A stretch of DNA of 39,766 nucleotides. Origin: Lacinutrix venerupis (lineage in GTDB: Bacteria > Bacteroidota > Bacteroidia > Flavobacteriales > Flavobacteriaceae). Where the stretch lies: contig NZ_RCCH01000011.1 of the NCBI RefSeq assembly GCF_003663945.1, forward strand, positions 1-39,766, written 5' to 3'. Positions 778 through 18,265 of the stretch are shown here, piece by piece; positions within the stretch are counted from its first letter, which is position 1, and each line of letters begins with the position of its first letter. A program made the translations under genes and the position numbers. The notes below the pieces were generated by a model. It was not told where the DNA came from. It worked only from the letters and a program-made list of their open reading frames with translations, and searched no databases.

Positions 778-790
778 AAACTTATTTATT
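769..790. terminator. Weak AT-only hairpin between convergent genes
   Basis: AATAAATA (769-776) pairs with TATTTATT (783-790) around a 6-nt loop. The hairpin spans the stop codons of the repressor and the SF1 helicase. The stem has no G-C pairs, so it is at best a weak bidirectional terminator. Confidence 0.3.
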
Positions 791-2897
791 GAGATTCTTT
801 TATTTCTAAATGATTTTTAGAAACCCTCAACTCAACCATTAATGATCTTAATTTTTTAGAAACTTCTTGCAATTCGTCTGTCACACTAAAAACCTTTGGA
901 TCGCCTACAATTATAAGTTTATGTTTAGCTCTTGATAATGCCACATTTACTAACCTTTCTCCACCAAAACCTTTATAAAGTAATCCTACATTTTTCTCAC
1001 AATTATCGACAATATCATAAATTATCATATCAAAACCTGAGCCTTGGAATGAATGAATTGTCCCTATTTTAACCCTTTCGAGATCTAAATTAGATATTAT
1101 TCTATTTTGAATTTTCCTTCTTATTGTAATAACTTGACCATTATAAGGCGTTATTACACCTATTTCAATCGCTTTATTTTCATTAAGAACACTTTCAACT
1201 AAATCTGTAATGATTTCTGCTGTTTTATTATTGACCCTAGATTTACCTTCTGTAGATTTAACCACTGCTCCATCCTTGGGAGAAAATGGTATAAAACTAT
1301 ATGGCGTATTAATTTCACCATAAGCTGTTTTAATTGTTTTAAAACTTTCAGAGTATTGAGACGTTAATTTCCCATCATAAAATCGATTATTAATAAGCTC
1401 ACATATTTTTGGATTCATGCGTCTTTGTTCGGTTAGCATTACAGTTACATCATCCTCTACTCTTTCTACACCTTCCAAATACTGAAATATATCTGAGTTA
1501 AACCAATTGGCAACAGCTTCTGTTTTACCATTACTTATTGGCCCCAACTGTCTGTAATCTCCAGCAACAACAAACTTATTTTTTGTAAAACTAGCCATAG
1601 TCAATGTTTGTATTAATGGCATCATACCAACCTCATCAACAACAACTAAATCGAACTTTTCATTTTCAAAATAATCTCCAAGAAAACATTGTGCAGCTGT
1701 AGTAAAAACTAAACTTGACTCGCCTATTCGTTTTTGATTTATCTTTTTAATTTCATTTTTAAGCACAACTTGCTTATTTCTATAAATCGCTTTGTTGTCA
1801 TTAGTTAAACCATGTCTATTTCTTAAAGCTTTTAAAACTGCGCTGTATTCTTTTCTTAAACTATCTACAATATCTTTTTCAGGATATAATCTATCATCAG
1901 CAACAATTGATGGCAAAACAGGATAACCAAATCTTAAAATTTTTCGATTATTTAGAAGCTTTATAGAGGCTTCACTATAATTCTCGAATTCATCAATTAT
2001 TTCTTCTCCTAAAACATCAATTGAAACATTTGAAATACCAACCGCAAGTACTCGTAGTCCTGCACAACAAGCTTTAGCTATTATTTTGGATAACGTAAAA
2101 GTTTTTCCTGTTCCTGGAGGCCCCCAAATAAAAGTAACATTTTGAGAAAAAACCTTAGATAAAACTTTATTTTGCTCTTCGTTTAACCTAGAATCAGTAG
2201 TTGCCGTGTCTAACTTTTTATCTAATAAAAATTCAGATTTATAAAACATTTGATGCGTTAAACTGTTCTCATCATGAATAACATGATCGAACCGACGTTT
2301 AATTTGTTTCAAAAAATTTATAGGTTTTGGCTTGAATCTAAATTTAGTTTTTAAATGCTCTTCGGATAATTCATTAGAGACTCTAAGTATAACTGTAGAC
2401 ATCCTTCTGTAATAAGCCAAAAACACACCTTCTATATTATTTTTTTCAGAGACTTCTCTCCACCATAAATTAATAGGAATACCTTCTTGACTGGGTGTAG
2501 AAATACCATCTGGTAAAGAAATTATCGCTTCGTACAAATAACCAAAATTTGAATTTGATATTTTTCTAGTAATTTTTGCGACTATCCATAATTTAGAATT
2601 GTCTTCTTCAATCGCATTTTCTTCATCTATAAATGCTTTTATGACTTCTTGATTTTTATCATCAACAAGATCAAACAATGAAGGAAAATCTCGAACTACC
2701 TTATCCCAAAGTGGTATATATAAATACCTTCTTTTTTTACCAAAATATGCGCTATATTCTTCTAGAGCACTTTCAATTAATTCTAACGTCAATTTCTGTT
2801 TGTAAAGTAGGTTTTTTAACTGTTTCTCATTGTATGCCTTTTCTTTATGGTCAATCTCATTCCATTTTTTTATTATCGTTTTAAAAACAACTTCCAT
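786..2897 (-). CDS. SF1 helicase, DNA2/NAM7 (Upf1-like) family, 703 aa
   Basis: This is a superfamily 1B-type helicase. Walker A is GPPGTGKT at residues 259-266, and Walker B is VVVDEVGMM with D421-E422. The C-terminal AAA_12-type half carries TIHSFQGSGFDMIIYD (motif V region) and RLVNVALSRAKHKLIIVGD (motif VI). The first 230 residues match no domain I recognise and probably hold a nucleic-acid-binding region. No nuclease motif is visible. It is the last gene of the defence operon; its ATG overlaps the hsdR stop by one base (TAATG), indicating translational coupling. Stand-alone DNA2-like helicases are common in defence islands, where they are thought to remodel or unwind foreign DNA. Its partner here is likely HsdR or the whole operon, but that is inference from position. 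Confidence 0.88.
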   Translation of the reverse strand: MEVVFKTIIKKWNEIDHKEKAYNEKQLKNLLYKQKLTLELIESALEEYSAYFGKKRRYLYIPLWDKVVRDFPSLFDLVDDKNQEVIKAFIDEENAIEEDNSKLWIVAKITRKISNSNFGYLYEAIISLPDGISTPSQEGIPINLWWREVSEKNNIEGVFLAYYRRMSTVILRVSNELSEEHLKTKFRFKPKPINFLKQIKRRFDHVIHDENSLTHQMFYKSEFLLDKKLDTATTDSRLNEEQNKVLSKVFSQNVTFIWGPPGTGKTFTLSKIIAKACCAGLRVLAVGISNVSIDVLGEEIIDEFENYSEASIKLLNNRKILRFGYPVLPSIVADDRLYPEKDIVDSLRKEYSAVLKALRNRHGLTNDNKAIYRNKQVVLKNEIKKINQKRIGESSLVFTTAAQCFLGDYFENEKFDLVVVDEVGMMPLIQTLTMASFTKNKFVVAGDYRQLGPISNGKTEAVANWFNSDIFQYLEGVERVEDDVTVMLTEQRRMNPKICELINNRFYDGKLTSQYSESFKTIKTAYGEINTPYSFIPFSPKDGAVVKSTEGKSRVNNKTAEIITDLVESVLNENKAIEIGVITPYNGQVITIRRKIQNRIISNLDLERVKIGTIHSFQGSGFDMIIYDIVDNCEKNVGLLYKGFGGERLVNVALSRAKHKLIIVGDPKVFSVTDELQEVSKKLRSLMVELRVSKNHLEIKESQ

Positions 2898-5863
2898 TAG
2901 TAATACTCCTTAATATATCCATAAGCACGCTCAAATAACATTTGATCCTTATGTAATTTATATTTTAATAATGCCTTACGTAGTGATTTTTGCACTTCAC
3001 GTTCACCTGAACTAGTTTTTTGCCATCCAGGAAAACGAACCACACGTACAATAGCATCTATATCCGTAACTATGCGTTCTACAACAGCTGGTGTTTCATC
3101 ATTTTTTAATTCTATAAACAATTCAGTAAGTGCAGCTTTTGGTGTTTTTTCTATTATTAATGTTTCTAATTCTTTTTCAGCAACAATAGTTTCTTTTGCT
3201 AATTTACACAACTCTTTCACAAACTCTATAGAGGTTATTAAACCTAACTCGGCTTTATCTCTTAGCGCTTCTAAACGTTCACTTAGTGATTTAAATTTAG
3301 GATCTCCAGCGTGTTTTTTAAAACGTTTAATTAATAGTTTCTCTAGTTTCTTTGCATTTTTAGGATCGGGATTGTTGAATATGTTTTCAATAACATCTGC
3401 ATCTAAAACAAACTCTTCTAGATGGTGCACTTCTCCAACATGGGTGTTTTCATGCATTAACTTAGTCGTTTCTGCTCCTAATGAAAACCATAATAATTTT
3501 CCAATATTATCTGCTGCAGGTCTTACCGACTCAAATACTTGAGATAACCATTTGTAATCCTCTTGATATTGGTTTAAAATATTATCTGGTGAAAGCGATT
3601 CCCATATCTTAGCTAAGAATTTATAGTCTTTTGCAAAAGCATCTTTTTTATCATTATCATTTATGGCATTTTGAGCAGCCTCTAAACCTTCAAATCCATC
3701 AATAGTTCTATCTACACCTTTAAAATGAGACAAAGCTTCTTTCATAGCTTCTGGTAACTTATCCCTAAGTTCTGTAAGGTTAGAAATAACAGTTTTTATA
3801 CTTTCCTCATCAAACTGTAAGGCTTTTGCTGCATCATCAAACACTCCAAAATAATCTACAATACGACCAAATGATTTATTAGGAAATAATCTATTAGTTC
3901 TACAAATAGCTTGTAATAACGTATGATCTTTGATTGACTTATCTAAATACATTGTTTGTAAAATTGGCGCATCAAAACCAGTTAATAGTTTTGCAGTAAC
4001 AATAATAAATTGCAAATCTGATTGCGCGTCATTAAACTCTTCTACAATTTTTTCTTGCTGACTTTTATCAACTCCCCATTTTTGTTTAAAATCTAATTCA
4101 TCATTGGCAGAAGTTGAAATAACCACTTTACTAGCCTCTTCAGGGAAGTACTTGTCTAATTCTTCTTTGTATTGCACACAAGCATATCTGTCTGGTGTAA
4201 CAATCATCGCTTTAAAACCATGAGGTGCTACTTTATCTTTAAAATGTGTTGCAATATCTTCTACAATTTTAGCGACTCTTTCTGGGGACTTTAAAAACGC
4301 AGACATCTTAGCCGATTTTTTATTTAAAGCATCTGCTTCTTCATCTGTTAAAGCACTGCTTTCTTTAAATTCTTCAAAGACTTTATCTATAGTGTCTTTA
4401 TCTACATGTATATCAACTAAACGAGGTTCAAAGTGTAATGGTAAGGTTGCATTATCTCTTATAGAATCGTGGAATGTATAGCGCGACATATAACCTCCTT
4501 GATCTTCCTCTGCTCCAAACGCCCAAAACGTGTTTTTATCTGCCTTGTTAACAGGTGTACCTGTTAATCCAAACAAAAATGCATTTGGTAAAGCAGCACG
4601 CATTTGTCTTCCTAAATCACCTTCTTGTGTTCTATGCGCTTCATCCACTAAAACAATAATATTATCTCTAGTATTCATATTCGGTTTCGCATCTCGAAAC
4701 TTAAATATCATAGAGATGATAATTTTTCTTGTATCGTTTTCTAATAACTTTTGAAGCTGTTTAATGTTATCAGTAGTTTCTACATTAGAAATATCGGCAG
4801 CATTAAACGTCCCTGTAATTTGGGTATCTAAATCAGTTCTATCTACCAATACAATAACCGTTGGACTCTTTAAATCCTTTTCTCTTCTCAATTTTTGAGC
4901 AGCAAAAACCATTAACAACGATTTTCCTGACCCTTGAAAATGCCAGATTAACCCTTTTTTGATTTTTCCTTCTTTAACACGTTCTACAATCTTATTAGCG
5001 CCTTCATATTGTTGGAACCTCGGAATAACCTTAATACGTTGTTTCTTTTTATTGGTAGTAAATAATGAGAAGTTTTGTAATATATCCAACAAACGTTGTG
5101 GATGTAACAAATCGGATAACTCCTTACCTACTTCACCTAAACCTAAACGTTTTGCTATTGCATCTTCATCATTTTCTAAACGCCAAGGTGCCCAAAACTC
5201 TAAAGGCGTTCTAATAGCTCCATAATACAGTTCTTTACCTTCTGTAGCGAATGATAAAATGTTAGGTACAAATAATTGCGATACTGCATTTTCATAAATA
5301 TCATGAACCTCATGCGCTCCATCTAACCAACTTATAGCAGGACGAATAGGCGTTTTTGCTTCTCCTATAACCACAGGCAAACCATTAATAAATAATACTA
5401 CATCTGGTATTTTAGTTTCTCTGTGATGAATACGAAATTGAGTAGTTGTAATAAAAGTATTATTGTTTATCTCATCAAAGTCTATTAAGCGAACAGGAAC
5501 ATGTCTATTGTTTTCACCAAAAGGCATGGTTTTATCTCCTTGTAGCCATTTATAAAATTCTTCATTGGCACGAACTAAACCTACTTGATGCACAGAAATT
5601 AAAATAGCACGAAGTTTATAAATCACCTCATCTGCAAATTCTGGATTAGATGTAATCTCTGGATTTAATTTAATTAAAGCTGCTTTTAACTCTAATTCTA
5701 ACAATACCTCGTTTACTGAGCGATTTAAATCTTGTGACGATTTATATTGCCATAAACTATTATACAATGAAGCATCTTCTGAAACTTCATTGCTATTTAA
5801 ATTAACACATGTAAGTTGTTTTATAATGTAATTTTCTACACTGTTTAGTTCGTTGAATCCCAT
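2897..5863 (-). CDS. hsdR: Type I restriction endonuclease subunit R (HsdR), 988 aa
   Basis: This is the ATP-dependent translocase and nuclease subunit of a Type I restriction enzyme. The N-terminal PD-(D/E)XK nuclease shows D154 (KIPDVVLFINGLP) and E168-A-K170 (VIGEAK). The SF2 motor has Walker A GSGKS at 311-315, DEAH at 407-410 (VLVDEAHRTQEGDLGRQM), the LTGTP motif near 433, and motifs V/VI in TGFDAPILQTMYLDKSIKDH followed by QAICRTNR. The length of about 990 aa is normal, and I see no frameshift. In typical loci hsdR is adjacent to hsdM/hsdS; here about 7.9 kb carrying mcrB, mcrC, a small unknown, a RecQ-like helicase and a coiled-coil gene separate it from hsdS. It starts 9 bp after the coiled-coil stop and overlaps the SF1 helicase start, so it is part of the same transcript. 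Confidence 0.97.
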   Translation of the reverse strand: MGFNELNSVENYIIKQLTCVNLNSNEVSEDASLYNSLWQYKSSQDLNRSVNEVLLELELKAALIKLNPEITSNPEFADEVIYKLRAILISVHQVGLVRANEEFYKWLQGDKTMPFGENNRHVPVRLIDFDEINNNTFITTTQFRIHHRETKIPDVVLFINGLPVVIGEAKTPIRPAISWLDGAHEVHDIYENAVSQLFVPNILSFATEGKELYYGAIRTPLEFWAPWRLENDEDAIAKRLGLGEVGKELSDLLHPQRLLDILQNFSLFTTNKKKQRIKVIPRFQQYEGANKIVERVKEGKIKKGLIWHFQGSGKSLLMVFAAQKLRREKDLKSPTVIVLVDRTDLDTQITGTFNAADISNVETTDNIKQLQKLLENDTRKIIISMIFKFRDAKPNMNTRDNIIVLVDEAHRTQEGDLGRQMRAALPNAFLFGLTGTPVNKADKNTFWAFGAEEDQGGYMSRYTFHDSIRDNATLPLHFEPRLVDIHVDKDTIDKVFEEFKESSALTDEEADALNKKSAKMSAFLKSPERVAKIVEDIATHFKDKVAPHGFKAMIVTPDRYACVQYKEELDKYFPEEASKVVISTSANDELDFKQKWGVDKSQQEKIVEEFNDAQSDLQFIIVTAKLLTGFDAPILQTMYLDKSIKDHTLLQAICRTNRLFPNKSFGRIVDYFGVFDDAAKALQFDEESIKTVISNLTELRDKLPEAMKEALSHFKGVDRTIDGFEGLEAAQNAINDNDKKDAFAKDYKFLAKIWESLSPDNILNQYQEDYKWLSQVFESVRPAADNIGKLLWFSLGAETTKLMHENTHVGEVHHLEEFVLDADVIENIFNNPDPKNAKKLEKLLIKRFKKHAGDPKFKSLSERLEALRDKAELGLITSIEFVKELCKLAKETIVAEKELETLIIEKTPKAALTELFIELKNDETPAVVERIVTDIDAIVRVVRFPGWQKTSSGEREVQKSLRKALLKYKLHKDQMLFERAYGYIKEYY

Positions 5864-5872
5864 AATTAATAT

Positions 5873-6556
5873 CTATATGAATTTATATAACAAAAAGCCC
5901 AAGAATATTGCAGAAAACACTATTACTATAATAAGGGTTGTAGTGAGTCGTTTAAGTTTTTTATGAGTTACCTCAATATCTTTTTTGACATCTAAAAAAT
6001 AAGTGTTTAAATCCTCCTTATTTTCAAACATGTTTTTATTTGTACTTATCAATTGGTCAATAAACTTATTAGTTAAATCTTCAACCTTTCCAGTAATACT
6101 GCTATTGTGCTCTCCGATTTTCTTATCAACCTCGTTTCCATAATCTAAAATGTCCTTTTCAAGTTTAGATCTTAGATTTTTTATCTCAGCTGTATAAACA
6201 TGAACTTTTTTCTCTAAACGAGCTTTCACAGATTCTAACGTTTTATTGGATTTATCCAAATAATCGTTAGCAAATGACTTAAATTTATTGGATTGATGAT
6301 TAACCCCCTCATTAAGAAGATTAACGGAATCTTTAATAGACTCCTCCATTTTCTCTAAATCTTTCTTTTTAGATTGATAGTCATTTTCTATACCTGTTTT
6401 AAATGTTTCGACAGATTGAACAAATGATTTTATTTCTTTAATAATATTTCTTGCGTTTTCACTATTAGATGATGTGATTTCGTTAATTGATTTTAAACGC
6501 TCTAGTTCGCCAATTAGTGCTTCAAATTCTTCCTGTAGTTCTATGTTTTTTGACAT
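5873..6556 (-). CDS. Tail-anchored coiled-coil protein, 227 aa, unknown function
   Basis: I recognise no named family. Residues 1 to about 195 are charged and heptad-like (repeated E/K/L/I/S/N), strongly suggesting long coiled coils. Residues about 205-225 (TTTLIIVIVFSAIFLGFLLY) form one transmembrane helix almost at the C-terminus, with no signal peptide, so it looks tail-anchored with the coil in the cytoplasm. Its ATG shares a base with the RecQ-like gene's stop (TAATG), and hsdR follows after 9 bp. The tight coupling suggests that it works with the RecQ-like helicase, perhaps as a membrane tether, oligomerising sensor or effector. That role is inference. Apolipoprotein-like or tropomyosin-like database hits would only reflect the coiled coil. 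Confidence 0.85.
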   Translation of the reverse strand: MSKNIELQEEFEALIGELERLKSINEITSSNSENARNIIKEIKSFVQSVETFKTGIENDYQSKKKDLEKMEESIKDSVNLLNEGVNHQSNKFKSFANDYLDKSNKTLESVKARLEKKVHVYTAEIKNLRSKLEKDILDYGNEVDKKIGEHNSSITGKVEDLTNKFIDQLISTNKNMFENKEDLNTYFLDVKKDIEVTHKKLKRLTTTLIIVIVFSAIFLGFLLYKFI

Positions 6557-9500
6557 TATGCAGTAATTTTATTTAAGAGTTCTTTTAATTTAAAATGTGA
6601 TCTATTTACTAATAATTCAGAAGAGAGGTCATCCATTAAAGGTTTTATTTCTGAATTAAAATCAAGTGTCTTTTTATTGAATAAATTTATTAGCGATTTT
6701 ACCTCATCCCAAGAATCAATTCTCAACATGCGCCTGAAGCCTGATCTATATAAATCTATTGCTTTTGCTACTAGTGGTTTTTCATTTGCGGTATCAATAG
6801 TATCCTCTTCTTTAAGCTCTAATGCTAAAAGACTGAATGCGGTTAGTAGATCAATACTTGCGTTTTCAACCATATTTATGTGCAAATTATCGCATGCACC
6901 ACGTAAATGTTTTGCATTGTCTATTTGGCCTCCTAAACCGTCCGGAGGATTATCTATAAATCCTATATATTTTTTTACAATAGCGCAATTTTCTTTTGTG
7001 CCTTTCTCTGTATCAGCTGGCAAGTAGTCTTGTCGAGCATATTTAGAGGTGAAATAACGCACCATTCTATCACGAAACTCATCTTCGCCTTCGTCCAAAT
7101 GTACTTCACATAACTCTTTCATGTAATCAATAGATCGTTTTCTTTTATCAGATATCTCACTTTCTATAAATTCAATCAAAACATATAAAACTTGAGTTAG
7201 AATTGAATTTTCTCTTACTTTTTTTATTTTATTAAGCCATTCTTTTGTAGTTTCAATTCCTAGATAACGCCTTAAATAGGCTTTAAAATTACTCTTGTAA
7301 TCCTTGTTGCTTTTTGCTGTAAAACGTACTTCAATAAGATGCCCAACATAATCAATGACATAATCATCAATAATTCCTAAAATGTTTAAGCGATAGACAG
7401 CACGCTGTGTATCTTGAGTATTTCTTATTCTTGAGAAATTATCCTTCAAGAACTGTAATATCTCTGGACTAGCTGAAAATTCTTTTCGAGAAACACCGTA
7501 CCTGTTTATTTGAAACTTGTAATACTGGTAACTTATACTTTCCGAAAAATCATTTTCATCGGTACTAAAATTATAGGCTGCTCTTATAATTCGTTCTTCA
7601 AAATCGTCATAACCAATACTTTTTATTACCTCGTTCATTTTGGAAACAATACCATTGGTAAAACCAATTTTTAAGGTGTATTGTTCATTTGTACCACTTT
7701 CAATAAGTGTTTTTATACCTTCTGCAGACTTCGTTTTAAACCATTTTAAGTAATCTTGACCTTCACATGCTTCATTTAATACTCTTCTACTGAACTCTAA
7801 TATTTCATTTGCTTTATCAATGTCAAAGTTTTGTGTTGCATTGTCATAACTACGAAGGTTTCTTTGTAAATCTAATAGCCCAATTTTTATGCGTTGGGCT
7901 GGATTGTCATGCCATGGCCCATTTATATAGATATATCTGTCATTGAATAAATTTACAGATTTCACTTCAGGGAATTTATCCCTTATCTGTTGCTTTAATA
8001 CATTGACGAAAAAACCATCTTCGTATTGTACCTCTTCAAGTAGTTCGTCTATAATTAGACGTTCTCTTTTGATGCCTTTAAAGGCATTTTTATAAAAATC
8101 ATAATTGGTCTCAATATCTATAGGATGATATATAATAGAACATAATGACGGGTTACCATCCCTACCTGCACGTCCAGCTTCTTGGTAAAAACTCTCAACA
8201 GAATTTGGAAAAGAATAATGAATAGAATAGCGAATATTAGGCTTGTCGATTCCCATACCAAATGCCTTAGTAGCAATCATCAAATTGGCTTTATTTTTTA
8301 TAAAATCATCTTGATTTTTAAAAGATTCTTCCGCCTGTGATTCTATGGCATTATCCTTAATAACATTATCATCTCCTCCTCCAAAAAAAGTTCTAATATC
8401 TAAAAATTGTAAATCTTCGAGTCCACCACCTGAATTATTCTTACCATAAGTTAAGTGCATCACTCCGTTTGGTAATTTAGTGGATTTTGTTGGGCAAAAA
8501 ATAACTCCAGCATTTTTATACCCATCATTAGATTGACCATAAAAATCAGTTACTTCGTTAATATAACCATACCTGCGTTCAAGCGCATGAATTTGATCTG
8601 GTACATCTCTAAGAAACTGTTTAATAACTGGATATTTGCTATCACCCAATCTGCGCTCTCTATCGTAATATTCTAATCCTTCCGGTACTTCTATAGAAAT
8701 TGGTATGATATTAAAATTTAGCTCTTCACGATCAATCGCTTCAGCTGGTAAGCTAATTATCGCTTCTTCCTTTAGATTAAGCTCTCTTTGTACATCAGCA
8801 AGCACATCAAAAGAAGCTGTTGCAGTAAGTCCAAAAACTGTTAGCTTATCTGTTTTTGATGCGCAATGTCGTTTTATATTCTCAGCCAGATTTAAGTATA
8901 CATGCCTAAAATCATGTCCCCATTCAGAAACACAATGCGCCTCATCTATGACCGCATAACTAAAGTAAACATTCAAATCTTTACAACTAGACAGCGATTG
9001 TCTAAAATTCTCCATTTGGAATCTTTCGGGCGAAACAAATAAAATTAAGTAATTACTTTCTACGAGTTTCTGCATACGATCTCCTCGTTCTTCCTGAGAA
9101 TTAAAGGAGTTGATATAGGTTGCATTGCTTATTCCATTTTCAATCAATTTATCATATTGATCCTTCATTAAGGAATTAATCGGATCTACCACAATGGTTA
9201 TTCCCGGATGTAACAAAGCACATATTTGAAAGGTTAGCGATTTACCACCACCTGTGGGTAATAAACCTATGACATCCTCTCCAATTAAAGCTTTATTTAT
9301 GATAGCTTCTTGACCTGGTCTGAACTTAGCTTTCCTAAAGATATTTTGCAATAGATATTCTATTGCCTGTTGTTGTTTCTGTGTAGCATATTCAAAATTG
9401 TGAACTTCTCGTTTTTCGCCATTAACCATCTCTTTTTCTGTGATAACTACCTTACCTAATTTTTGGTATTTAATTTGACGGTCCGTTAATATCTTAAAGT

Positions 9501-10230: not shown

Positions 10231-10590
10231 CTATTTAATACTAATTTCCTCCTTCACAAAAGATTTGAAATCAAACCCTAGACCACCACTCTTTACATCA
10301 CATAAAAAATTATTACTACCTGCATTTATCTCAAGGTCTACTGCATTTTTATCTTCTCTAATTCTAAATGTTTCCTCTATAGATTCTACAAAACCTACAG
10401 ACAAAACAATCCAAAAGATACCTGCTTCAATCTTTAATAGAAGATTAACTTCTGACTTAAACTTTGAAACAGGTACGTTAAACCACCAAACATTTTTAGA
10501 CTTATTAATATTAGAAAAACTGGTATTACTATTTGTTAAAGCAGCATTGTATTCTTTGTTAAGATATTCTATCAATTCTTTCTTTTTCAT
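10231..10590 (-). CDS. Hypothetical protein, 119 aa, between mcrC and the RecQ-like gene
   Basis: I do not recognise this protein. It has a charged N-terminal helix (MKKKELIEYLNKEY), a Trp-rich stretch around residues 33-40 (KNVWWFNVPVSKF) and alternating hydrophobic/polar segments that suggest a small alpha/beta fold. There is no signal peptide, and one hydrophobic strand (about 56-70, GIFWIVLSVGF) is too short and too interrupted to be a confident membrane helix. The ATG is at 10590, 9 bp after the mcrC stop, and the RecQ-like gene follows after 12 bp, so it is certainly in the operon. It could be an accessory subunit of McrBC or of the RecQ/coiled-coil pair. Position alone does not decide. 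Confidence 0.75.
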   Translation of the reverse strand: MKKKELIEYLNKEYNAALTNSNTSFSNINKSKNVWWFNVPVSKFKSEVNLLLKIEAGIFWIVLSVGFVESIEETFRIREDKNAVDLEINAGSNNFLCDVKSGGLGFDFKSFVKEEISIK

Positions 10591-10599
10591 CTCTATATA

Positions 10600-11880
10600 T
10601 TAATTTACTCCAATTTTATTTGCAACGCATGGCACAGATAAACCTAAGCAATAAAACCCAACATATTTATCTATTGGTTTCTTTTGTTCTAAATCTAATA
10701 GTCCATTATTTTGGTTCTCTTTGTCTCGAATAGGATAAATAATAAGACATTCAATAACTTCATTAGTTGACTTATTCAATTCTCTATAAACTTTATCCAT
10801 TCTGGCATAACCCGCTAATTGTCTAATGTCTTCTTTGTTGTTTTTTCCTCTACCGTATTTTGTTTTATACTTGGTATCGATTACTAATTGTTTATTCTCA
10901 GTATTTAATAAGAAATCTAATTCTTGATAATTAGATTTGTATTGATAATGAATATCATCTCCATAGGTTTTGCGAAGAAAAGTAAATGCGTACAATTCAA
11001 ATAATAAAGGCATATTAATCCAAAAGGGTGGTGTTTGGATTTTACTTGCTTCTATAGTTCTTACATTGTGTCCAAAACGTTTTAATATAAGTTGTGCAAG
11101 ACTTATGACTTCTTTATAACTCCTAAAAAAAGGCGAAATCTTAAAATGTTGTAAGGTTGATATATTCTTAGGTACAGTAACCTCTTCAAAAGCAGGTAAA
11201 CAATATTGTAAAGCGTTTGATGCTAAAGCAGCATATTCTGGATATGAACTCAGGTATTTTTGAACAAACAGAAGACCAGCTTTTAAGATTTGGTTTTCGG
11301 GATAATTTAAGCCAAAAGTATCAAAAGCACAGATTGTTTTTAATGGTTCATTCTTATATGTATAGTGTTTTAAAGTCTGCGACAACAACAACTTACCCTT
11401 TACACGAGCGTTTAAATGTTTTTCTTCGCGATAGTAAGATTTTTTTAATCCTTTTTTAACCAATTGTTTTACCAAGTTTAGAAACTGAATCACTAACAAA
11501 GGTGATAACAAATCTAATGATTGATCTATTTCTATTGGTGAATCTTCACTTTTAATCTCGTAAATATTACTAATGTGTTTCGTTGCTTCACTATCATTTA
11601 AACACGTTAAGAGCATCCGCAAATAATCGGTTTCAAAACCATCTTTATTTAATTTTGGTGAAATACAAATAGCTCGATTTGTAGTCTGACATAACCAATC
11701 TACACCTATGAAATAATGAGATTCAATAGAATCGTTATTAATTGAAAAGCATGGTTTGTTTTTGGAATTATACTTTCCAAATTTTCGGTTTTTGAAATAA
11801 TAAGCTTCAAAAGAAATGCTTTCCTCGACGGCTTGCTTTTCTTTATGTTCTCCTAGTCGTATTATTTCAGTTATATCCAA
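10600..11880 (-). CDS. mcrC: McrC, nuclease subunit of McrBC, 426 aa
   Basis: McrC is the endonuclease partner that stimulates McrB NTP hydrolysis and cuts DNA containing modified cytosine. The C-terminal PD-(D/E)XK site is visible: a FELY helix near 294, D322 (QELDFLL) and D335-T-K337 (LVIDTKYK). The N-terminal region (about 20-180) has the usual McrC beta-rich binding part, with the RVKGKLLL motif at 159-166. Length fits the family. The start is odd: the reading frame begins TTG GAT ATA, in the same frame as mcrB and just after its TAA stop plus one codon, and the first ATG in frame is residue 89, which would remove conserved sequence. Translation therefore probably uses TTG, coupled to mcrB termination. 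Confidence 0.95.
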   Translation of the reverse strand: MDITEIIRLGEHKEKQAVEESISFEAYYFKNRKFGKYNSKNKPCFSINNDSIESHYFIGVDWLCQTTNRAICISPKLNKDGFETDYLRMLLTCLNDSEATKHISNIYEIKSEDSPIEIDQSLDLLSPLLVIQFLNLVKQLVKKGLKKSYYREEKHLNARVKGKLLLSQTLKHYTYKNEPLKTICAFDTFGLNYPENQILKAGLLFVQKYLSSYPEYAALASNALQYCLPAFEEVTVPKNISTLQHFKISPFFRSYKEVISLAQLILKRFGHNVRTIEASKIQTPPFWINMPLLFELYAFTFLRKTYGDDIHYQYKSNYQELDFLLNTENKQLVIDTKYKTKYGRGKNNKEDIRQLAGYARMDKVYRELNKSTNEVIECLIIYPIRDKENQNNGLLDLEQKKPIDKYVGFYCLGLSVPCVANKIGVN

Positions 11881-11883
11881 AAC

Positions 11884-13722
11884 TTATAATTTATTTATTT
11901 CTAAAAGCGCTTTTTCGTTTAAGACCCCATCTTTTACATATTCTTTTAAGATAGGAACTACTTCATATTTGACTTTTATCTCTAATTCTTCTTTGGTCTT
12001 TGCCATGAAATAACTATGACCAATCTGTACATCTTCTTTCTTAAAATCCGAGGCAAGTATATCTTTAGAAAATAAGTTACTTACCGTTTCAAAAGTTTCT
12101 TTAGCAAAATCAGGAACATGCATCTCGTTTGGTAGCACATCTATAAAAGAGAAACGACGTCTTATAGCATAATCGATGTGACCTACAGAACGATCTGCAG
12201 TATTCATAGTGCCAATTATATAGAGATTGTTTGGTAATTTAATTGCACGCTCACCTTCATACTCGTACAATGAATTAACAGGTCTTCCTCTATACTCTAA
12301 AGCGTATATTAACTCTCCTAAAACAGCAGGTAAATTAGCTCTATTAATTTCATCTATAATTAATACAAATTTAGCTTTTGGATTATCTGTTGCACGTTCT
12401 GCAAATTCAGCTAAAATTTTATTCTTCACATTAAACGTTGGCTGTTTATCTACAACTTCCGCTACAATACCACGCACAAAATCTTCATAAGAATATGCAG
12501 GATGAAATTGAACCAATTCGAAAGCTCCTTTAGTAATTACTTTATTGTCTTTTAAAACCTCCCCATTCTTTAAGTTGAAATTATCAACTAAAAAAATCAT
12601 AAACTCATGAGGCTTCACATCTGCATTAAATTCCTGATTTTTATTTTGATGTAATGCTAACAATTTTTGATTAAGTTCAACAAAATTTTCGTCAGAATAG
12701 TCTATACCAAATAAATCTAATGCGTTTTTTATGTAATTAATAGCATTAATAGGCATGTACTCATTAGGATAATAGGTATTTAATATTTTAAGTATAAAAC
12801 TAGGGCCAAAAAACTTTTCACCTTCTTTATAATCTTTACCTACTGCTATTTTATCTAAATATCCAGCAACTATTTTCATAGCATCCTCATCATCTTTGTC
12901 TTTTATAGAACCATTTTTGCTGTATTCTTCATTTGATTTTGACCAATAAATACGATAAGATCTAGCACTTCCAGGAAAATAATAACCGAATGGTTTTAAA
13001 CCAAGTTCTATCCACCAACAAAAGTTGTCTCGACCACCTGTACCAATACAATAGTTTTCAAGAGTTAAGCTTTTGAGGTTCTCTTTTGGAAAGTTTGCTA
13101 AAAATCGCTCTCTTAAATCTTCTCGTTCTTGACGCGCTTTAATAATTTCAGGATCTGTAGCTTTAAAGTTTTGGTAAAACTCATCTAGCAACTCCTTTGG
13201 ATTACTTACGGTTTCTATCTCTGTAAGTTCTTTAGCAATAGCCTCAGCAGTATAGGTTTTCCCTGTACCTGGTGGACCTTGTAAAATGATTTGTTTTTTA
13301 TGCTCTAAAACTTTGATTATATCTTCTTTTTCAATTTCGCTCATAAGACTATTTACATAATTGCTTATACCATCCTCTCTTAATGCTTCTATTGTTTTTC
13401 TATAGGAAACATTATCAAAATCTAAAGGAAAGGTTTCGTTTTTAAACCATTTCATTTCAAATTTATGATCAGCTATTTTACTAATTACTTGACCAATTCC
13501 TTTAACTTTTGTAAATGTTATAGAGTTCTTTTTTCCTTTGGTAGCACTAGATTTCATAACTAGTATATCACCAACATTAATTAGCTTAAGAGTCTCTAAA
13601 TACCTTAAATCATTGTTTTCACCATAGCCATCAAACCAAATGCTTTCGTTTAAAAATCGATCAGTTATATCATCTCCACCGTGAAAAGAACCTACGGCCC
13701 AATATTTTATTTTATTCTTCAT
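11884..13722 (-). CDS. mcrB: McrB AAA+ GTPase with EVE-like N-terminal reader domain, 612 aa
   Basis: This is the AAA+ motor of a modified-DNA-dependent restriction system. Residues 1-110 begin IKYWAVGSFHGG and resemble EVE/PUA-like modified-base readers. Walker A is GPPGTGKT at 149-156, the McrB motif FHPAYSYEDFVRGI is at 406-419, Walker B LIIDEIN at 454-460, and the McrB signature MNTADRS at 506-512, followed by RRRFSF. Between Walker A and FHPAYSYEDF lie about 250 residues (156-405), far more than the short linker I expect, so an extra Trp/Tyr-rich domain is inserted in the AAA+ fold. The gene starts 2 bp after hsdS and ends 3 bp before mcrC. It is likely to recognise methylated or hypermodified phage DNA; the exact base is unknown. 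Confidence 0.95.
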   Translation of the reverse strand: MKNKIKYWAVGSFHGGDDITDRFLNESIWFDGYGENNDLRYLETLKLINVGDILVMKSSATKGKKNSITFTKVKGIGQVISKIADHKFEMKWFKNETFPLDFDNVSYRKTIEALREDGISNYVNSLMSEIEKEDIIKVLEHKKQIILQGPPGTGKTYTAEAIAKELTEIETVSNPKELLDEFYQNFKATDPEIIKARQEREDLRERFLANFPKENLKSLTLENYCIGTGGRDNFCWWIELGLKPFGYYFPGSARSYRIYWSKSNEEYSKNGSIKDKDDEDAMKIVAGYLDKIAVGKDYKEGEKFFGPSFILKILNTYYPNEYMPINAINYIKNALDLFGIDYSDENFVELNQKLLALHQNKNQEFNADVKPHEFMIFLVDNFNLKNGEVLKDNKVITKGAFELVQFHPAYSYEDFVRGIVAEVVDKQPTFNVKNKILAEFAERATDNPKAKFVLIIDEINRANLPAVLGELIYALEYRGRPVNSLYEYEGERAIKLPNNLYIIGTMNTADRSVGHIDYAIRRRFSFIDVLPNEMHVPDFAKETFETVSNLFSKDILASDFKKEDVQIGHSYFMAKTKEELEIKVKYEVVPILKEYVKDGVLNEKALLEINKL

Positions 13723-13724
13723 AA

Positions 13725-14912
13725 CTAAAACACCTGATTAATTAAACTCTTTTGTAAGGCTTTGGATCTTGAGATTTTGGATTCTAGTTCTAACCTAGTT
13801 TTTTCATATTCTAGCAATTTTTCAGTAACCTTCATCATTATATTTTGTGAAGGAATTACCACTTTAAATCTCCTTATTGAAGATTTAGAAATTTCTAAAA
13901 ATGTACTTCCTCCTGCAAGCCTAGTTAACTCATTAGTTAGATGCTTTAAAAGAAAATATAGAAAATAATTATTTACCTTTTCATTACAGATGAAGTTTGA
14001 AAAACCTTGGTTTGTAGCCATAGGAACATCATTTATAATTGCGTAACCAATAGTTGCTCTTGAACAATATAGTAATGATCCAACTGGATAAAGTCTATTT
14101 GATATATTTTTCAAACCACTTTCTGTAATGTATTCTCTAGTTCGATCTAGTAATATTTTATTGTGTTTAGTTACATCTGTTGGTGTTAACCAAGGAATTT
14201 CTCCATTCCAATATTCCTCAATATCCCTTGATGGTGTAGAACCTCCCGTTATTTCCGCAATTTCAGAAAGACGGTAAATCTTATAATCAATCGGAAGTTT
14301 ATTTTCTATCCCACTCCTATATTTTATAAGACATTTTTTTTCATATGCTCTTTTAGAAATATTAATTCTTTCCAAAACCTCATTCTCCCTCTCAACAACC
14401 TCATCCATAGCCCAAAGTAATTCAGCAAGTTTAGCTTGTTGGTCTTTTGGTGGTAGTAGGAATTCGTAATTTGCTAAATCTTTAAACTTTACACGAGGTG
14501 ATAAACCACCTGCAGAATGTTTAATAGCGTAATCGAAAAACTTATCATTATGTACTATAAATGGTAATAACTCAGGTAGTAAGTTATCTTTTGCCCTAAA
14601 AACAGTTATATCTCCAGAACAAATACCATTAAATTTAGCTTGTGCCGCTTTTTTTAAATAAGCTCTGCGTCTTCCAAATAAGACATCATCTACTGCAAAT
14701 TTCTTTGTGAATGTTGTGCTTTCTTCAATACTTGCCGAGTTTCTCAAATGAATATCGTCACTTGTGATATGTTCTAGACCAACAACATGTTTAATATTAT
14801 CTCCAATTGGGTCTTTTGTAGATTCTTTAGGCTCAAAAACAACATCCCCAAATTTAACAGGTTGCCAATTAGATTTATCTATTTCAATTTTCTTATTCAA
14901 TACTTCTTCCAT
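13725..14912 (-). CDS. hsdS: Type I specificity subunit S (HsdS), 395 aa
   Basis: HsdS reads the bipartite DNA target and holds the M and R subunits together. Two target-recognition domains are visible. TRD1 spans about residues 15-150 (start WQPVKFGDVVF, end PRVKFKDLANYEFLLPP), followed by a helical spacer (QQAKLAELLWAMDEVVERE). TRD2 spans about 205-360 (YRLSEIAEITGGSTPSRD, IPWLTPTDVT, ending SSIRRFKVVIPS), followed by the second coiled coil. Both TRDs look complete, so one S subunit can specify a full bipartite site. The ATG overlaps the hsdM2 stop (TAATG). There is no second hsdS, recombinase or inverted-repeat pair nearby, so shuffling of specificity is not indicated. The target sequence cannot be read from the protein by eye. 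Confidence 0.96.
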   Translation of the reverse strand: MEEVLNKKIEIDKSNWQPVKFGDVVFEPKESTKDPIGDNIKHVVGLEHITSDDIHLRNSASIEESTTFTKKFAVDDVLFGRRRAYLKKAAQAKFNGICSGDITVFRAKDNLLPELLPFIVHNDKFFDYAIKHSAGGLSPRVKFKDLANYEFLLPPKDQQAKLAELLWAMDEVVERENEVLERINISKRAYEKKCLIKYRSGIENKLPIDYKIYRLSEIAEITGGSTPSRDIEEYWNGEIPWLTPTDVTKHNKILLDRTREYITESGLKNISNRLYPVGSLLYCSRATIGYAIINDVPMATNQGFSNFICNEKVNNYFLYFLLKHLTNELTRLAGGSTFLEISKSSIRRFKVVIPSQNIMMKVTEKLLEYEKTRLELESKISRSKALQKSLINQVF

Positions 14913-16378
14913 TAATCGTTAAGTATTTCGAAAAGTTCATTCATTGATTTTTTTAATTGTTTTGAAGAATCTTTCCAACTATCATAAACATCTTCAAACT
15001 TATCTTCAGTTTGCATGCTTAACTGTTGAGCTCTTACGTACAACCTAATAGACATATTACCATCGTTAGCAAGTACTTCTTCGTTAGTCTGTAAAGCAGA
15101 AAAATTCTCTTTATTGGTAAATTCCTTATAAGCTTTAAATATTTTATCAATATGTTTTTCTTCCAAAAAGCCCATTGTTTTTTCTTGTTTAACCTCTTCT
15201 ACTGCGTTAATAAATAGAATTTTCCCTTTCTTATCTTCAGACTTATTAGTTTTAGTAATTAACAAACATGCTTCCATTGGTGAATTATAAAACAAGTTAG
15301 GCCCTAAACCAATAACACATTCCACCAAATCTTCTTCAATCATTTTCTTCCTCAAATCAGCTTCTTTATCTCTAAATAATACTCCATGAGGCCATAATGA
15401 AATAGAACGTCCATTTTCTTTATCTAAACTTTTCTGTATGTGTTGTTGAAATGCATAATCTGCACAACCTTGTGGTGGTGTGCCCCAAAGATTACGTCCA
15501 AAAGGGTCGTTGGTAAATGCTTTTTGGTCCCAAGCTTTAATACTGTATGGTGGGTTTGCTAGTATAACGTTAAAAGTTTTTAGGATATCGTTTTCTAAAA
15601 AGGCAGGTTGTGCCAACGTATCACCACGAACAATGCTAAACTCTTCGATACCATGCATAAACATATTCATACGTGCTATGGCACTGGTAATGAGGTTTAT
15701 TTCTTGTCCGTATAATTTTAGGGTTCTGTATTCTTTGCCTTCATCGCGTAAATGCAACGCGCAGTTTAATAGTAAACCACCAGAGCCACAGGTTGGGTCG
15801 TACACAGATTCTCCTGGCTGTGGGTCCATAATCATGGTCATTAGTTTTACAACCGTACGGTTAGTGTAAAACTCTGCTGCTGTATGGCCCGAATCGTCTG
15901 CAAACTCTTTAATTAGGTATTCGTAAGCGTTTCCTAATTGGTCGTCTGGTACGTTTTCTAAATTAAGCTTGTGTTGTGAGTAATGTTCTATAAGATTGGT
16001 TAGTGTTTCATCGCTTAATCTGTTTTTATTAGTCCAAGAGGCATCACCAAAAATTCCATACAAGGTTTCTGGGTTTGCTTTTTCAATAGCACGCATGGCA
16101 TCTTGTATAGCAATACCAACGTTTGTGGTGGTTTCGCGTACAGTGTTCCAATGTGCATTTTCGGGCACTATAAAATGGTGGTTTTCGGCAAAAGCTGCGT
16201 ATTCTAAATCGCCTTCTCCTTCTTCTAAAGCTTTCTCAAACTCTTCATCATACACATCACAAATACGTTTAAAAAACAATAACGGAAAAATGTATTGTTT
16301 ATAATCGCCTGCGTCTATGGTACCACGTAACGCGGTTGCTGCGCCCCAAAGGTATTTCTCTAAGTTTTGTTGGGTCAT
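14912..16378 (-). CDS. hsdM: Type I DNA methyltransferase subunit M, copy 2 (HsdM2), 488 aa
   Basis: This is an N6-adenine methyltransferase subunit. The N-terminal HsdM helical domain (YIFPLLFFKRICDVYDEEFE) is followed by AAEFYTNRTVV, the AdoMet motif I DPTCGSGG at 194-201 and the catalytic motif NPPY at 275-278. It aligns along its whole length with the other hsdM product encoded just upstream, so the two are paralogues. It differs at usually conserved spots: FYTNR instead of FYTPR, and SLWPHGVLFRDKEADLRKK where copy 1 has the usual VVLPHGALFRKGAEGKIRK. It overlaps the small nuclease-like gene by 4 bp (ATGA) and hsdS by 1 bp, so it is the M subunit physically coupled to hsdS. All catalytic residues are present. 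Confidence 0.96.
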   Translation of the reverse strand: MTQQNLEKYLWGAATALRGTIDAGDYKQYIFPLLFFKRICDVYDEEFEKALEEGEGDLEYAAFAENHHFIVPENAHWNTVRETTTNVGIAIQDAMRAIEKANPETLYGIFGDASWTNKNRLSDETLTNLIEHYSQHKLNLENVPDDQLGNAYEYLIKEFADDSGHTAAEFYTNRTVVKLMTMIMDPQPGESVYDPTCGSGGLLLNCALHLRDEGKEYRTLKLYGQEINLITSAIARMNMFMHGIEEFSIVRGDTLAQPAFLENDILKTFNVILANPPYSIKAWDQKAFTNDPFGRNLWGTPPQGCADYAFQQHIQKSLDKENGRSISLWPHGVLFRDKEADLRKKMIEEDLVECVIGLGPNLFYNSPMEACLLITKTNKSEDKKGKILFINAVEEVKQEKTMGFLEEKHIDKIFKAYKEFTNKENFSALQTNEEVLANDGNMSIRLYVRAQQLSMQTEDKFEDVYDSWKDSSKQLKKSMNELFEILND

Positions 16379-16782
16379 GTTAATTCTTTCAATTTATACT
16401 GTACTTGTTCTTTAATTTCCAAAGCTAAAACGTTATGCCAATTTCTGAACACAAACCTAAACCGATTTGGAAATTGTGATTCTATCTTCTTGCCCATATA
16501 TTTACATAATGCTATTCTATTTTTCGGAGCCTTGTTTTCTTCTCGAATAATTTGAATCAATAATATTTTTATCTCAGGGTTTTCTTCTAGATAAGGCCAA
16601 ACTTTGATGACATTGGTGTTAGGGTGTTTTTGTCCTTTTTCAACTTCCAGTAAGACTAATACATTATCTCGCTGACAGTAAAAATCAACATTTCCCCATT
16701 TTCCTAATTTTAATTCATCGGTTTCAAAGTCAATACCCAAACGATTGGCAATAAAAAGATTTTCTTCTGTAACTCTAGCCAA
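16375..16782 (-). CDS. Small nuclease-like protein between two hsdM genes, 135 aa
   Basis: I do not recognise a named family. D33 (GNVDFYCQRD) followed by a hydrophobic strand and E46-V-E48-K49 (VLLEVEKGQKH) resembles the beta-hairpin active site of PD-(D/E)XK nucleases, although the spacing of the final Lys is not the textbook D/E-x-K. The rest is compact alpha/beta with a basic patch (APKNRIALCKYMGKKIESQF). It could be an active small nuclease, a degenerate one used for binding, or a folding or control factor. No ATG is available: the frame opens at TTG (16782) just after the hsdM1 TAA, and the 3' end overlaps hsdM2 (ATGA), so translation looks coupled on both sides. Placing a third gene between tandem hsdM copies is unusual. 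Confidence 0.8.
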   Translation of the reverse strand: MARVTEENLFIANRLGIDFETDELKLGKWGNVDFYCQRDNVLVLLEVEKGQKHPNTNVIKVWPYLEENPEIKILLIQIIREENKAPKNRIALCKYMGKKIESQFPNRFRFVFRNWHNVLALEIKEQVQYKLKELT

Positions 16783-16783
16783 A

Positions 16784-18265
16784 TTATATAAACTCTTTTA
16801 AAATAGTTTTAAACTCCTTTTCTGCTTTTTGGCTTTCTGCCCAAGCCTTTTTTAAATCGGATAATGCTTCCTCTACACTAGGTAAATTATCCTCTATAAT
16901 TTTTTCAACGTATAAAGGAATGTTTAAATTGAAGTCGTTTTCTTCAATATCAGTCATTGAAGCTACTTTTACATAATTCTCGACATCTTTATTCTGGTTA
17001 TACCAATCGAATAATTGGTTAATATGTTCAGATTCTAAATAGTTTTGAGCACGACCTACACGCACTTGGTCGGAGCCATCGATAAATAAAACTTTATCTT
17101 TTTTATCGGAGTCTTTGTTTTGCTTAAATACCATAGCGCAGGCTGCTAATTGTGTTCCGTAGAAAATATTTGGCCCTAAACCAATAACAGCTTCTAGCAA
17201 ATCATTTTCCAATAACTTTTTACGAATTTTACCTTCGGCTCCTTTTCTGAATAATGCACCATGAGGTAAAACAACCGTCATACGACCAGTACTATTCATA
17301 GATTTTATCATATGTTGTACCCAAGCCATATCGCCATTACCTTTTGGTGGTACACCTGCTATGTTTCTTCCAAATGGGTCATTCGCCCAATTTTCTGCTC
17401 CCCATTCTTTTAAAGAAAACGGTGGATTAGCAATTACACAGTCGAAGGTTTTTAAACCATCCGCAGCAAAAAATGCTGGTTGCCTTAAGGTGTCACCTCG
17501 CGCAATTTGAAAATCTTCAATACCATGTAAAAACATGTTCATTCTAGCAATAGAACTAGAGGTTAAGTTTTTTTCTTGTCCGAATAATTTAAGTGTTCTA
17601 TAATCTTCGCTATTTTCTTTTAAATGATCCACACATTCTAACAACATACCACCAGTACCACAAGCAGGATCGTAAATGGTTTCTCCTTCGTGCGGATCTA
17701 AAATCAATCCTAATAAATGCACTACAGAACGCGGTGTGTAAAACTCTCCTGCCTTTTTATTAGTTAAATCTGCAAAATGCTTGATTAAATACTCGTAAGC
17801 ATTACCAAGAATATCAGGCTCTACTAAAGAGTTAGAAAGGCTGTATTGAGAGAAGTGCTCTATTAAATCGATTAATAAACGATCTGATAATTTGTTTTTG
17901 TTAGACCATTGTGCATCACCAAAAATACCGTACAATAATTCTTGATTGGCTTGTTCTATGCCTCGTAGTGCTTTTTCAATGGCTAGTCCAACATTTGTGG
18001 TTGTTTCTCTTACATCTTTCCAATGACAACCTTCTGGTATTTCAAATCTATGAAACTCTGGTAGTGAAGCGTATTCTATGTCACCTTCGGACTCTTCTAA
18101 TGCTATTTCGTATTCTTCGTCGTAAACATCGGATAGACGTTTGAAGAATAGTAATGGGAAAATATATATTTTAAAATCTGAAGCATCTACTGGTCCTTTC
18201 AGAATCCATGCTGCTTTAGATAGGTATTGTTCTAATTGTGATAGTGTTAGTTTGATTTTGGTCAT
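16784..18265 (-). CDS. hsdM: Type I DNA methyltransferase subunit M, copy 1 (HsdM1), 493 aa
   Basis: This is the first gene of the defence operon and a canonical HsdM: N-terminal helical domain (YIFPLLFFKRLSDVYDEEYE), GEFYTPRSVV, AdoMet motif I DPACGTGG at 199-206, catalytic NPPF at 280-283, and TGRMTVVLPHGALFRKGAEG. Length and motifs are normal, so it should be an active m6A methyltransferase subunit. It is clearly paralogous to HsdM2 downstream. The only hsdS in the window follows HsdM2, so this copy either shares that S subunit, forms a mixed M1/M2 enzyme, or serves an S subunit encoded elsewhere. The start is ATG at 18265. The 363-bp spacer upstream must carry the operon promoter, but I see no clean TAnnTTTG box for it. 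Confidence 0.96.
   Translation of the reverse strand: MTKIKLTLSQLEQYLSKAAWILKGPVDASDFKIYIFPLLFFKRLSDVYDEEYEIALEESEGDIEYASLPEFHRFEIPEGCHWKDVRETTTNVGLAIEKALRGIEQANQELLYGIFGDAQWSNKNKLSDRLLIDLIEHFSQYSLSNSLVEPDILGNAYEYLIKHFADLTNKKAGEFYTPRSVVHLLGLILDPHEGETIYDPACGTGGMLLECVDHLKENSEDYRTLKLFGQEKNLTSSSIARMNMFLHGIEDFQIARGDTLRQPAFFAADGLKTFDCVIANPPFSLKEWGAENWANDPFGRNIAGVPPKGNGDMAWVQHMIKSMNSTGRMTVVLPHGALFRKGAEGKIRKKLLENDLLEAVIGLGPNIFYGTQLAACAMVFKQNKDSDKKDKVLFIDGSDQVRVGRAQNYLESEHINQLFDWYNQNKDVENYVKVASMTDIEENDFNLNIPLYVEKIIEDNLPSVEEALSDLKKAWAESQKAEKEFKTILKEFI

Follow-up and report, generated by a model that had tools for sequence, protein, structure and literature searches.

The window analysed here is a 39,766-nucleotide stretch of Lacinutrix venerupis DNA (contig NZ_RCCH01000011.1, positions 1 to 39,766), and our subject is an operon within it in which type I restriction-modification (R-M) genes, hsd, are interspersed with genes of a type IV enzyme (McrBC), a large RecQ-family helicase, and a coiled-coil protein with a C-terminal membrane helix (Table 1). 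The window also has an L19 leader of the Flavobacteria type, consistent with a flavobacterial host. The eleven same-strand open reading frames (ORFs) of the initial annotation, at 786 to 18265, are borne out: all lie on the minus strand, with spacings of -4 to +12 bp that run, in transcription order, M1/p135 +1, p135/M2 -4, M2/S -1, S/McrB +2, McrB/McrC +3, McrC/p119 +9, p119/RecQ +12, RecQ/coil -1, coil/HsdR +9, and HsdR/SF1 -1 (SF1, superfamily 1 helicase). From the spacing alone we infer that the eleven genes would share a single transcript. Pfam and NCBIfam scans each covered ten of the eleven proteins (the former omitting HsdM1, the latter p119) and together covered all of them, naming two HsdM, HsdS, McrB, McrC, HsdR, and two helicases, one of the RecQ family and one an SF1 protein (AAA_11/AAA_12); signatures of helicases, GTPases, and nucleases are present among HsdR, McrB, RecQ, and SF1. 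Neither p119 nor p135 matched a Pfam family, and two ORFs, those of McrC and p135, start with TTG.

Table 1. Coordinates of the operon genes and adjoining features in the window
Feature	Position	Strand	Basis
HsdM1, m6A-type subunit (AGEF, NPPF), core gene	16784..18265	-	motifs, PDB, relatives
135-aa protein (p135), slot A (between M1 and M2)	16375..16782	-	without known family
HsdM2, m4C-type subunit (AAEF, NPPY), core gene	14912..16378	-	motifs, PDB
HsdS specificity subunit, core gene	13725..14912	-	two Methylase_S stretches (Pfam)
McrB AAA+ GTPase, slot B (between S and R)	11884..13722	-	GPPGTGK, IIDEINR, MNTADRS
McrC (PF10117), TTG start, slot B	10600..11880	-	Pfam
119-aa protein (p119), slot B	10231..10590	-	without known family
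Large RecQ-family helicase, 1220 aa, slot B	6556..10218	-	Pfam, NCBIfam
227-aa coiled-coil protein, one C-terminal membrane helix, partner of large RecQ	5873..6556	-	
HsdR, nuclease (HSDR_N) plus SWI2/SNF2 motor, core gene	2897..5863	-	Pfam, NCBIfam
SF1 helicase, UPF1/IGHMBP2 type (AAA_11/AAA_12), slot C (after R)	786..2897	-	Pfam, NCBIfam
Inverted repeat upstream of hsdM1, possible operator	18519..18587	.	26-nt arms, 81% complementary
DUF5906 protein, island backbone	18629..19834	-	
Tyrosine integrase of island	21585..22730	-	
mnmE, host gene adjoining island	23523..24917	-	

The type I core and its McrBC neighbours

What the initial annotation overlooked is that the two HsdM subunits differ in catalytic type. 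M1 carries the motifs AGEF and NPPF and M2 carries AAEF and NPPY, a combination that the excerpt of PMC9613975 used here assigns to N6-methyladenine (m6A) for M1 and N4-methylcytosine (m4C) for M2, and the same motif rule holds in 12/12 M1 and 16/16 M2 sequences, window included (one M1, that of relative G153, is in two pieces). The closest PDB entries of HsdM1 and HsdM2 are the M1 and M2 subunits of PacII (7vru_A, E = 2.1e-170, and 7vru_B, E = 1.5e-185, respectively), and both proteins fall just below the NCBIfam hsdM cut-off (222.6 and 231.5 versus 242.75 bits). All components of a PacII-type set are present, namely, two different HsdM, one HsdS with two Methylase_S stretches, and an HsdR combining HSDR_N with SWI2_SNF2. 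By these motifs and matches, the core (M1, M2, S, and R) belongs to the rare, non-canonical type I R-M sets of the PacII type, with predicted two-mark methylation, and each site in host DNA would be expected to bear both m6A and m4C. The likeness to PacII (M1M2S) extends from the paired motifs and best PDB matches of the two HsdM to the first half of HsdS (residues 15 to 174), which matches PacII S (7vru_C, ranked second); the differences are that HsdS overall is nearer to 1yf2, its closest PDB entry, that the operon in the window is filled with other defence genes, and that its methylation is predicted only.

The type IV genes follow directly on hsdS. McrB has a Walker A motif at 149 and MNTADRS at 506 (an NxxD signature), with E. 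coli McrB as its nearest PDB match, and McrC matches PF10117 (E = 1.9e-28), its nuclease motif having been read by eye against a consensus. No credible Pfam or PDB match was obtained for the N-terminal reader domain of McrB, and a structure model built from a three-row alignment was of unusable quality (predicted local distance difference test [pLDDT] score, 38). The initial annotation reasoned that McrB must ignore the host's own m6A mark; this stands, but the conflict is sharper than was claimed. The predicted host marks are m6A plus m4C, and both are attacked by known McrB readers (in the excerpt of PMC7641849 used here, E. coli McrBC restricts 4mC, 5-methylcytosine [5mC], and 5-hydroxymethylcytosine [5hmC] DNA, and the McrB of T. 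gammatolerans [Thermococcus] reads m6A), so that the McrB of the window would have to ignore both. Membership of the CoCoNuT systems was ruled out, since the McrB of the window has NTAD (NxxD) and CoCoNuT needs NxD. As excerpted, the CoCoNuT census (PMC11090510) reports McrBC linked to type I R-M, DISARM-like genes, or methyltransferases; the window is like those loci in placing McrBC beside type I genes and unlike them in that its core is predicted to make m4C, a mark restricted by E. coli McrBC.

Conserved core and variable slots among relatives

Searches with HsdM2 at 1e-140 returned 10 matches in 397 genomes of the family and 7 in 395 genomes of the class, the window's own genome being counted in each. 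Fifteen relatives were read, eleven of which have both M1 and M2; the other four (G114, G707, G594, and G690) have M2 but no near M1, and the contig of G690 ends just after M2. In ten of the eleven M1+M2 relatives, identity to the window is 84 to 97% for M1, 74 to 93% for M2, and 77 to 93% for HsdR (78% for the HsdR of G257), and the eleventh, G449, is more distant (63%, 59%, and 53%, respectively). One of the ten, G599, belongs to another taxonomic family, its M1 and M2 being 87% and 84% identical to those of the window and its slot B holding only a PDC-M21-like pair. M1 is more alike between genomes than are MnmE (67 to 81%) and IDH (66 to 80%) in all eight genomes compared, which suggests horizontal movement of the core. 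The M1 and M2 of G153 (L123) contain internal stops, such that this core may be inactive or its assembly faulty.

Three positions around the core genes, slots A, B, and C, hold 72 proteins of 33 families when the M2-only loci are included and slot C is limited to genes within 30 bp of the preceding gene; left out of the 72 are an McrBC pair 100 bp after the HsdR of G129, a 369-amino-acid (aa) gene 63 bp after that of G599, and, in G449, a gene of 346 aa that separates M2 from S. Ten of the 72 were scanned with PADLOC, other family members being assigned by homology, and nine of these ten matched PtuA, TmtA, PD-Lambda-4_A, HEC-05, or PDC-M21A/B, one of them weakly. Several slot proteins have no known family, and inserted genes share the strand of the operon and are, in most cases, as tightly spaced.

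The contents of each slot differ from locus to locus. A homologue of p135 (38%) occupies slot A in one of the eleven other M1+M2 loci (G313); five loci have GmrSD-like proteins there (Pfam and PADLOC having been applied to that of G323 and the rest assigned by homology), G002 and G599 have nothing, and the remaining loci have other genes. Elsewhere, slot B holds PtuA of Septu (G129 and G002), TmtA of Tiamat (G153 and G002), PD-Lambda-4_A (G563 and, weakly, G323), or PDC-M21A/B-like pairs (6/12 loci), and it is empty in G449. Homologues of p119 are among the commonest slot B genes, with 6/12 M1+M2 loci having one (window included); p119 stands between McrC and RecQ in the window and beside other genes in the other five loci. 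In slot C, a homologue of the SF1 helicase (77%) has the same position in one of the eleven other loci (G323). The SF1 protein matches the helicase part of Mokosh MkoA (E = 7.1e-61, profile positions 543 to 1092 of 1112), not its first half, and MkoB had no match among the ten operon proteins scanned with PADLOC (HsdM1 was not scanned).

The initial annotation had made the case for one system depend on McrBC and the RecQ/coiled-coil genes recurring with this hsd set, and they seldom do. Within the stretches fetched, as distinct from whole genomes, the RecQ-coil pair is in none of the eleven other M1+M2 loci and an McrBC pair is in one, G129 (L162, 608-5048), where an McrB-like protein (1071 aa, MNTADR) and an McrC-like protein (414 aa, 26%) are distant in sequence and lie after HsdR rather than between S and R. 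Type IV genes of either kind, McrBC or GmrSD-like, are found in 6 of 12 loci including the window; G129 has both kinds around one m6A/m4C core, with the GmrSD-like protein in slot A. Other RecQ-type helicases occur in three of the eleven loci (G189, G257, and G153). Those in slot B of G189 (L129) and G257 (L128), two different genera, are split alike into two overlapping ORFs, the break lying between the two RecA-like domains and the second ORF bearing a UvrD part (as seen in the domain scan of G257), and that of G153 is a 1605-aa protein convergent to HsdR with no coil gene.

A blastn comparison of the window with eight of the M1+M2 relatives located the borders of this variation. The M1 3' border falls at 16783-16785 in 8/8 (gene end, 16784) and the M2 5' border at 16378-16395 in 8/8 (gene start, 16378); the HsdR 5' border falls at 5857-5872 in 6/8 (gene start, 5863), with the alignments of G031 and G002 ending inside the gene. 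On the 3' side of HsdR, homology stops at 2895-2901 in five relatives (gene end, 2897), runs on through the shared SF1 gene in G323, and is cut by the fetched stretch in G189 and G257. The S 3' end is a border in 4/8 (13707-13725); the body of HsdS is variable, and some relatives share short conserved DNA stretches near 14362-14517 and 13707-13786. DNA homology thus mostly ends within 20 bp of core gene ends, and in the sequences compared, the core is conserved between genera and its three slots vary.

Additional genes in hsd loci have precedents. As given in excerpts of PMC5183652, PMC4619093, and PMC12255303, the rlo and mlo ORFs of Campylobacter (R-linked and M-linked, respectively) and DarTG2 of enteropathogenic E. 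coli lie in hsd loci, with the S/R site as a potential recombination hotspot. The rlo/mlo ORFs are like the slot genes in occupying the same hsd junctions, and DarTG2 in lying between hsdS and hsdR; the present case is unlike these in comparing, from genus to genus, three slots of a single m6A/m4C core in which known defence genes occur, and in having McrBC and RecQ-coil among the slot contents. Together with the McrBC links of the CoCoNuT census, these precedents limit the novelty of the arrangement.

The initial annotation, correct in its eleven ORFs, omitted an island that separates the operon from mnmE and encodes an integrase, an HTH_17 protein, and a DUF5906 protein. Homologues of the island genes adjoin mnmE in G002, where the hsd operon has the opposite orientation relative to the integrase, and a distant integrase-HTH pair adjoins mnmE in G153, about 20 kb from the hsd core; no island backbone homologues were found in the stretches read from the other six genomes compared. 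Two tandem 11-nt copies of GTTGTTGAACT stand alongside the inverted repeat upstream of hsdM1 and may likewise belong to an operator.

The large RecQ helicase and its tail-anchored partner

The 227-aa protein matches coiled-coil families in Pfam and has a hydrophobic stretch from residue 209. RecQ matches at 1e-30 were obtained in 228 of 299 genomes of the family, and among the matches listed, an open RecQ frame exceeding 900 aa is present in the window and in G223, G237, and G053, followed in each of these three by a coil gene. Plasmid relatives came from nine records, and a small downstream gene is present in the five regions read; in one plasmid locus (L041), an IS1 transposase interrupts the RecQ region. 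Phage records contained no RecQ match at 1e-40, and no description of the RecQ-coil pair was found in the open-licence PMC literature searched.

A scan of 84,980 species genomes for RecQ, of which the best 80 loci were kept as a non-exhaustive set, yielded 67 large RecQ proteins (900 aa or more), the window not among them; five loci (L106, L110, L117, L120, and L121) have no RecQ ORF at the threshold, and three incomplete ones (L075, L078, and L085) were left out of the 67. A directly downstream gene of 100 to 350 aa with a C-terminal membrane helix accompanies 57 of the 67, compared to none of 32 canonical-size RecQ controls, 12 of which came from the best-80 loci and 20 from a separate search (Fisher P = 1.5e-17, relatedness ignored). 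All 57 partner proteins have no second membrane helix, and the median number of residues after the helix is 2. On a tree, large RecQ proteins form one clade (SH-aLRT support, 100) apart from 11 of 12 canonical-size rows, the remaining row being L089 (679 aa, a canonical-size control), which sits inside the clade.

Within this clade the additional domains vary. A DUF559-like nuclease domain is present in 49 of 71 large forms, a count that depends on the motif-chosen members from which its hidden Markov model (HMM) was built, and Pfam confirmed DUF559 in the three examples tested. The RecQ of the window has no such domain, and neither has any member of its own clade (window, L042, L043, and L044; support, 100). 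A second group (n = 23) has a methyltransferase-like N terminus, named by eye and delimited with an HMM made here (the one example tested had no Pfam match); a DUF1848 gene lies nearby upstream in 19 of the 23, and an AlkB-like gene is found in G223, L056, and L059, hinting at base chemistry as an alternative effector. The DUF1848 group comprises G223, L054-L059, L061-L064, L067-L072, L075, L080, L101, and L116, in which L056 and G223 have the AlkB-like oxygenase in place of DUF1848 and L059 has both. A further architecture is that of an E. coli plasmid (L040), whose 1558-aa protein joins HAD, DUF559, and RecQ parts; its gene follows a ShosA/PsyrA-like DprA gene and precedes a coil gene, and a phosphoribosyltransferase (PRTase)-like motif was seen in the protein by eye only.

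The RecQ-coil pair occurs alone and in contiguous arrangements with BREX genes (G223; PglZ and BrxL by PADLOC), McrB-McrC-HsdR (L084), HsdM-HsdS (L059), McrB-McrC (L062), and DrmD-DrmMI-McrB-McrC (L042). In the last, a DISARM-like operon, McrB-McrC-RecQ-coil are contiguous, and the RecQ is the closest relative of that in the window (68% identity); the N-terminal domain of its McrB differs from that of the window. Within 10 kb of 52 of the 67 large RecQ genes, no R-M-type gene was found (some contigs being short). In L084 and L037, YgjP/SprT-like metallopeptidase genes directly follow HsdR.

Several described systems were considered for this helicase. RqlHI, PsyrTA, and ShosTA are like the pair in having a RecQ-type helicase, and relative L040 adds the HAD and DUF559 parts with the DprA neighbour matching ShosA/PsyrA; they are unlike it in that the RecQ of the window has no DprA partner in its operon, that the PsyrT model covers the helicase part only, and that RqlHI, as described in the excerpted source, is a two-gene operon. 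RqlH and PsyrT were ruled out, with no PRTase on the window's RecQ (Pfam) and no DprA-like protein among the eleven (Pfam and NCBIfam). PADLOC models of DpdF, from the Dpd system, score the RecQ of the window and its relatives, and one of them, PDLC02868, spans L091 almost end to end and residues 471 to 1471 of L040; part of this RecQ family is therefore already labelled. The operon is unlike Dpd in that other Dpd matches among the ten PADLOC-scanned proteins are helicase cross-matches to DpdJ only, and DpdF was ruled out for the RecQ of the window, which scores 160.1 against an NCBIfam cut-off of 550 bits. The core genes of BREX and DISARM are absent from the operon, which gave only weak helicase and methyltransferase cross-matches (DrmA, BrxHI, and PglX models).

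Weighing explanations of the operon

In our view, a type I chassis bearing independent modules describes the operon better than one machine does. The m6A/m4C hsd core is very probably a chassis with swappable cargo: a horizontally moving M1-M2-S-R core would accept whole defence modules at its gene junctions, and recombination by way of the conserved core genes would exchange these modules, which would be expressed together with the core. Methylation by M1M2S would place m6A on one strand of host DNA and m4C on the other, leaving HsdR to cut unmarked DNA, and McrBC would cut DNA bearing foreign modification with a reader that ignores both marks. That RecQ plus coil constitutes a defence module is likely. 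How it might act is a more doubtful matter, and tethering to the membrane is a possibility that we would not favour as yet: the tail-anchored coil would hold RecQ at the membrane, intermediates of phage replication or of damage would be opened by RecQ and, in many relatives, cut by the DUF559-like nuclease fused to it, and in the nuclease-less form of the window, the opened DNA may feed HsdR or McrBC. Taken as a whole, we consider this explanation probable. The hsd core here seems to be cargo of the mnmE-site island while itself carrying cargo, and elsewhere it occupies other sites; mnmE and the core lie on separate contigs in 6/8 relatives compared, so the core does not generally reside at mnmE.

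That last count also weighs against the explanation, as do several others. Direct repeats marking the island ends, sought in the window as exact 14-mers, were not found, and both the defence function and the exchange of modules by recombination are deduced from comparison of sequences. Ten of the 67 large RecQ proteins have no partner by the rule used, and the C-terminal region of the window's RecQ (690-1220; model pLDDT, 89) had no PDB or BFVD match at E <= 0.001. R-M, BREX, DISARM, or McrBC genes within 10 kb are weakly enriched near large RecQ genes (15/67 versus 2/32; Fisher P = 0.051), and three of the 15 loci (G223, L042, and L043) supplied query proteins. Among embedded members, five of six have no nuclease (window, G223, L042, L059, and L062), but L084 is embedded yet keeps it, and a tie between nuclease loss and embedding is unproven, the tree offering four independent pairs, a number too small to reach significance.

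RecQ helicases act in repair, and the RecQ-coil pair could instead be a DNA-repair or anti-self-damage module that shields the host from its own restriction enzymes, as its adjacency to nucleases and the nuclease-less form in the window would allow. We consider this unlikely, given that most large relatives carry the DUF559-like nuclease, that the HAD-fused form on the E. coli plasmid, preceded by its ShosA/PsyrA-like DprA, has a toxin-antitoxin-type architecture, and that 52 of 67 large RecQ genes showed no R-M-type gene nearby in the 10 kb searched, some of it on short contigs.

The initial annotation had presented the operon as a hybrid, and type I, type IV, and RecQ/tail-anchored genes do lie inside one hsd operon; its further step, that the eleven genes are one system, is not supported. 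In such an integrated system, none of whose parts would work without the others, type I and McrBC enzymes would cut and the helicases and membrane coil would process the fragments. The single strand and overlapping stops and starts agree with this, L042 keeps McrB-McrC-RecQ-coil together elsewhere, and the McrBC pair of G129 and the other RecQ-type helicases of M1+M2 loci may mean that similar functions are wanted together. However, the RecQ pair recurs in no other M1+M2 locus and McrBC in one, distant and elsewhere in the locus; L042 sits with DISARM-like genes, not hsd, and has a different McrB N terminus; and p119 keeps other company in its five other loci. We judge an integrated system quite improbable. 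Nor is the alternative that the initial annotation offered, chance accretion, borne out, inasmuch as known defence genes fill the same slots in other loci and the RecQ pair turns up intact in several defence contexts. That slot contents are neutral hitch-hikers, piled up since hsd operons are mobile, would suit the wide variation in gene content and the slot proteins without known family but is very unlikely when nine of the ten slot proteins scanned resemble defence proteins, known or candidate, and the inserted genes respect operon strand and, for the most part, close spacing.

A broader extension of the chassis explanation, which we advance tentatively and rate at somewhat less than probable, is that RecQ-coil is an antiviral platform not yet described, a sensor of DNA structure that is tethered to the membrane and takes interchangeable effectors, which could also be plugged into type I, McrBC, DISARM, or BREX operons and borrow their effector, the m6A/m4C hsd operon being a cassette chassis that exchanges modules at ORF borders. 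Candidate effectors of such a platform would be the DUF559-like nuclease, the HAD-containing ShosTA-like fusion, and the methyltransferase-like domain with its DUF1848 or AlkB partners.

If the chassis explanation is true, it would provide a rule for finding defence modules, namely, to look, in any conserved hsd core, at what occupies its M1/M2, S/R, and post-R junctions, and it would name one new candidate module with a membrane anchor and swappable effectors. It would also allow a direct test of how host DNA marked with both m6A and m4C escapes a type IV enzyme.

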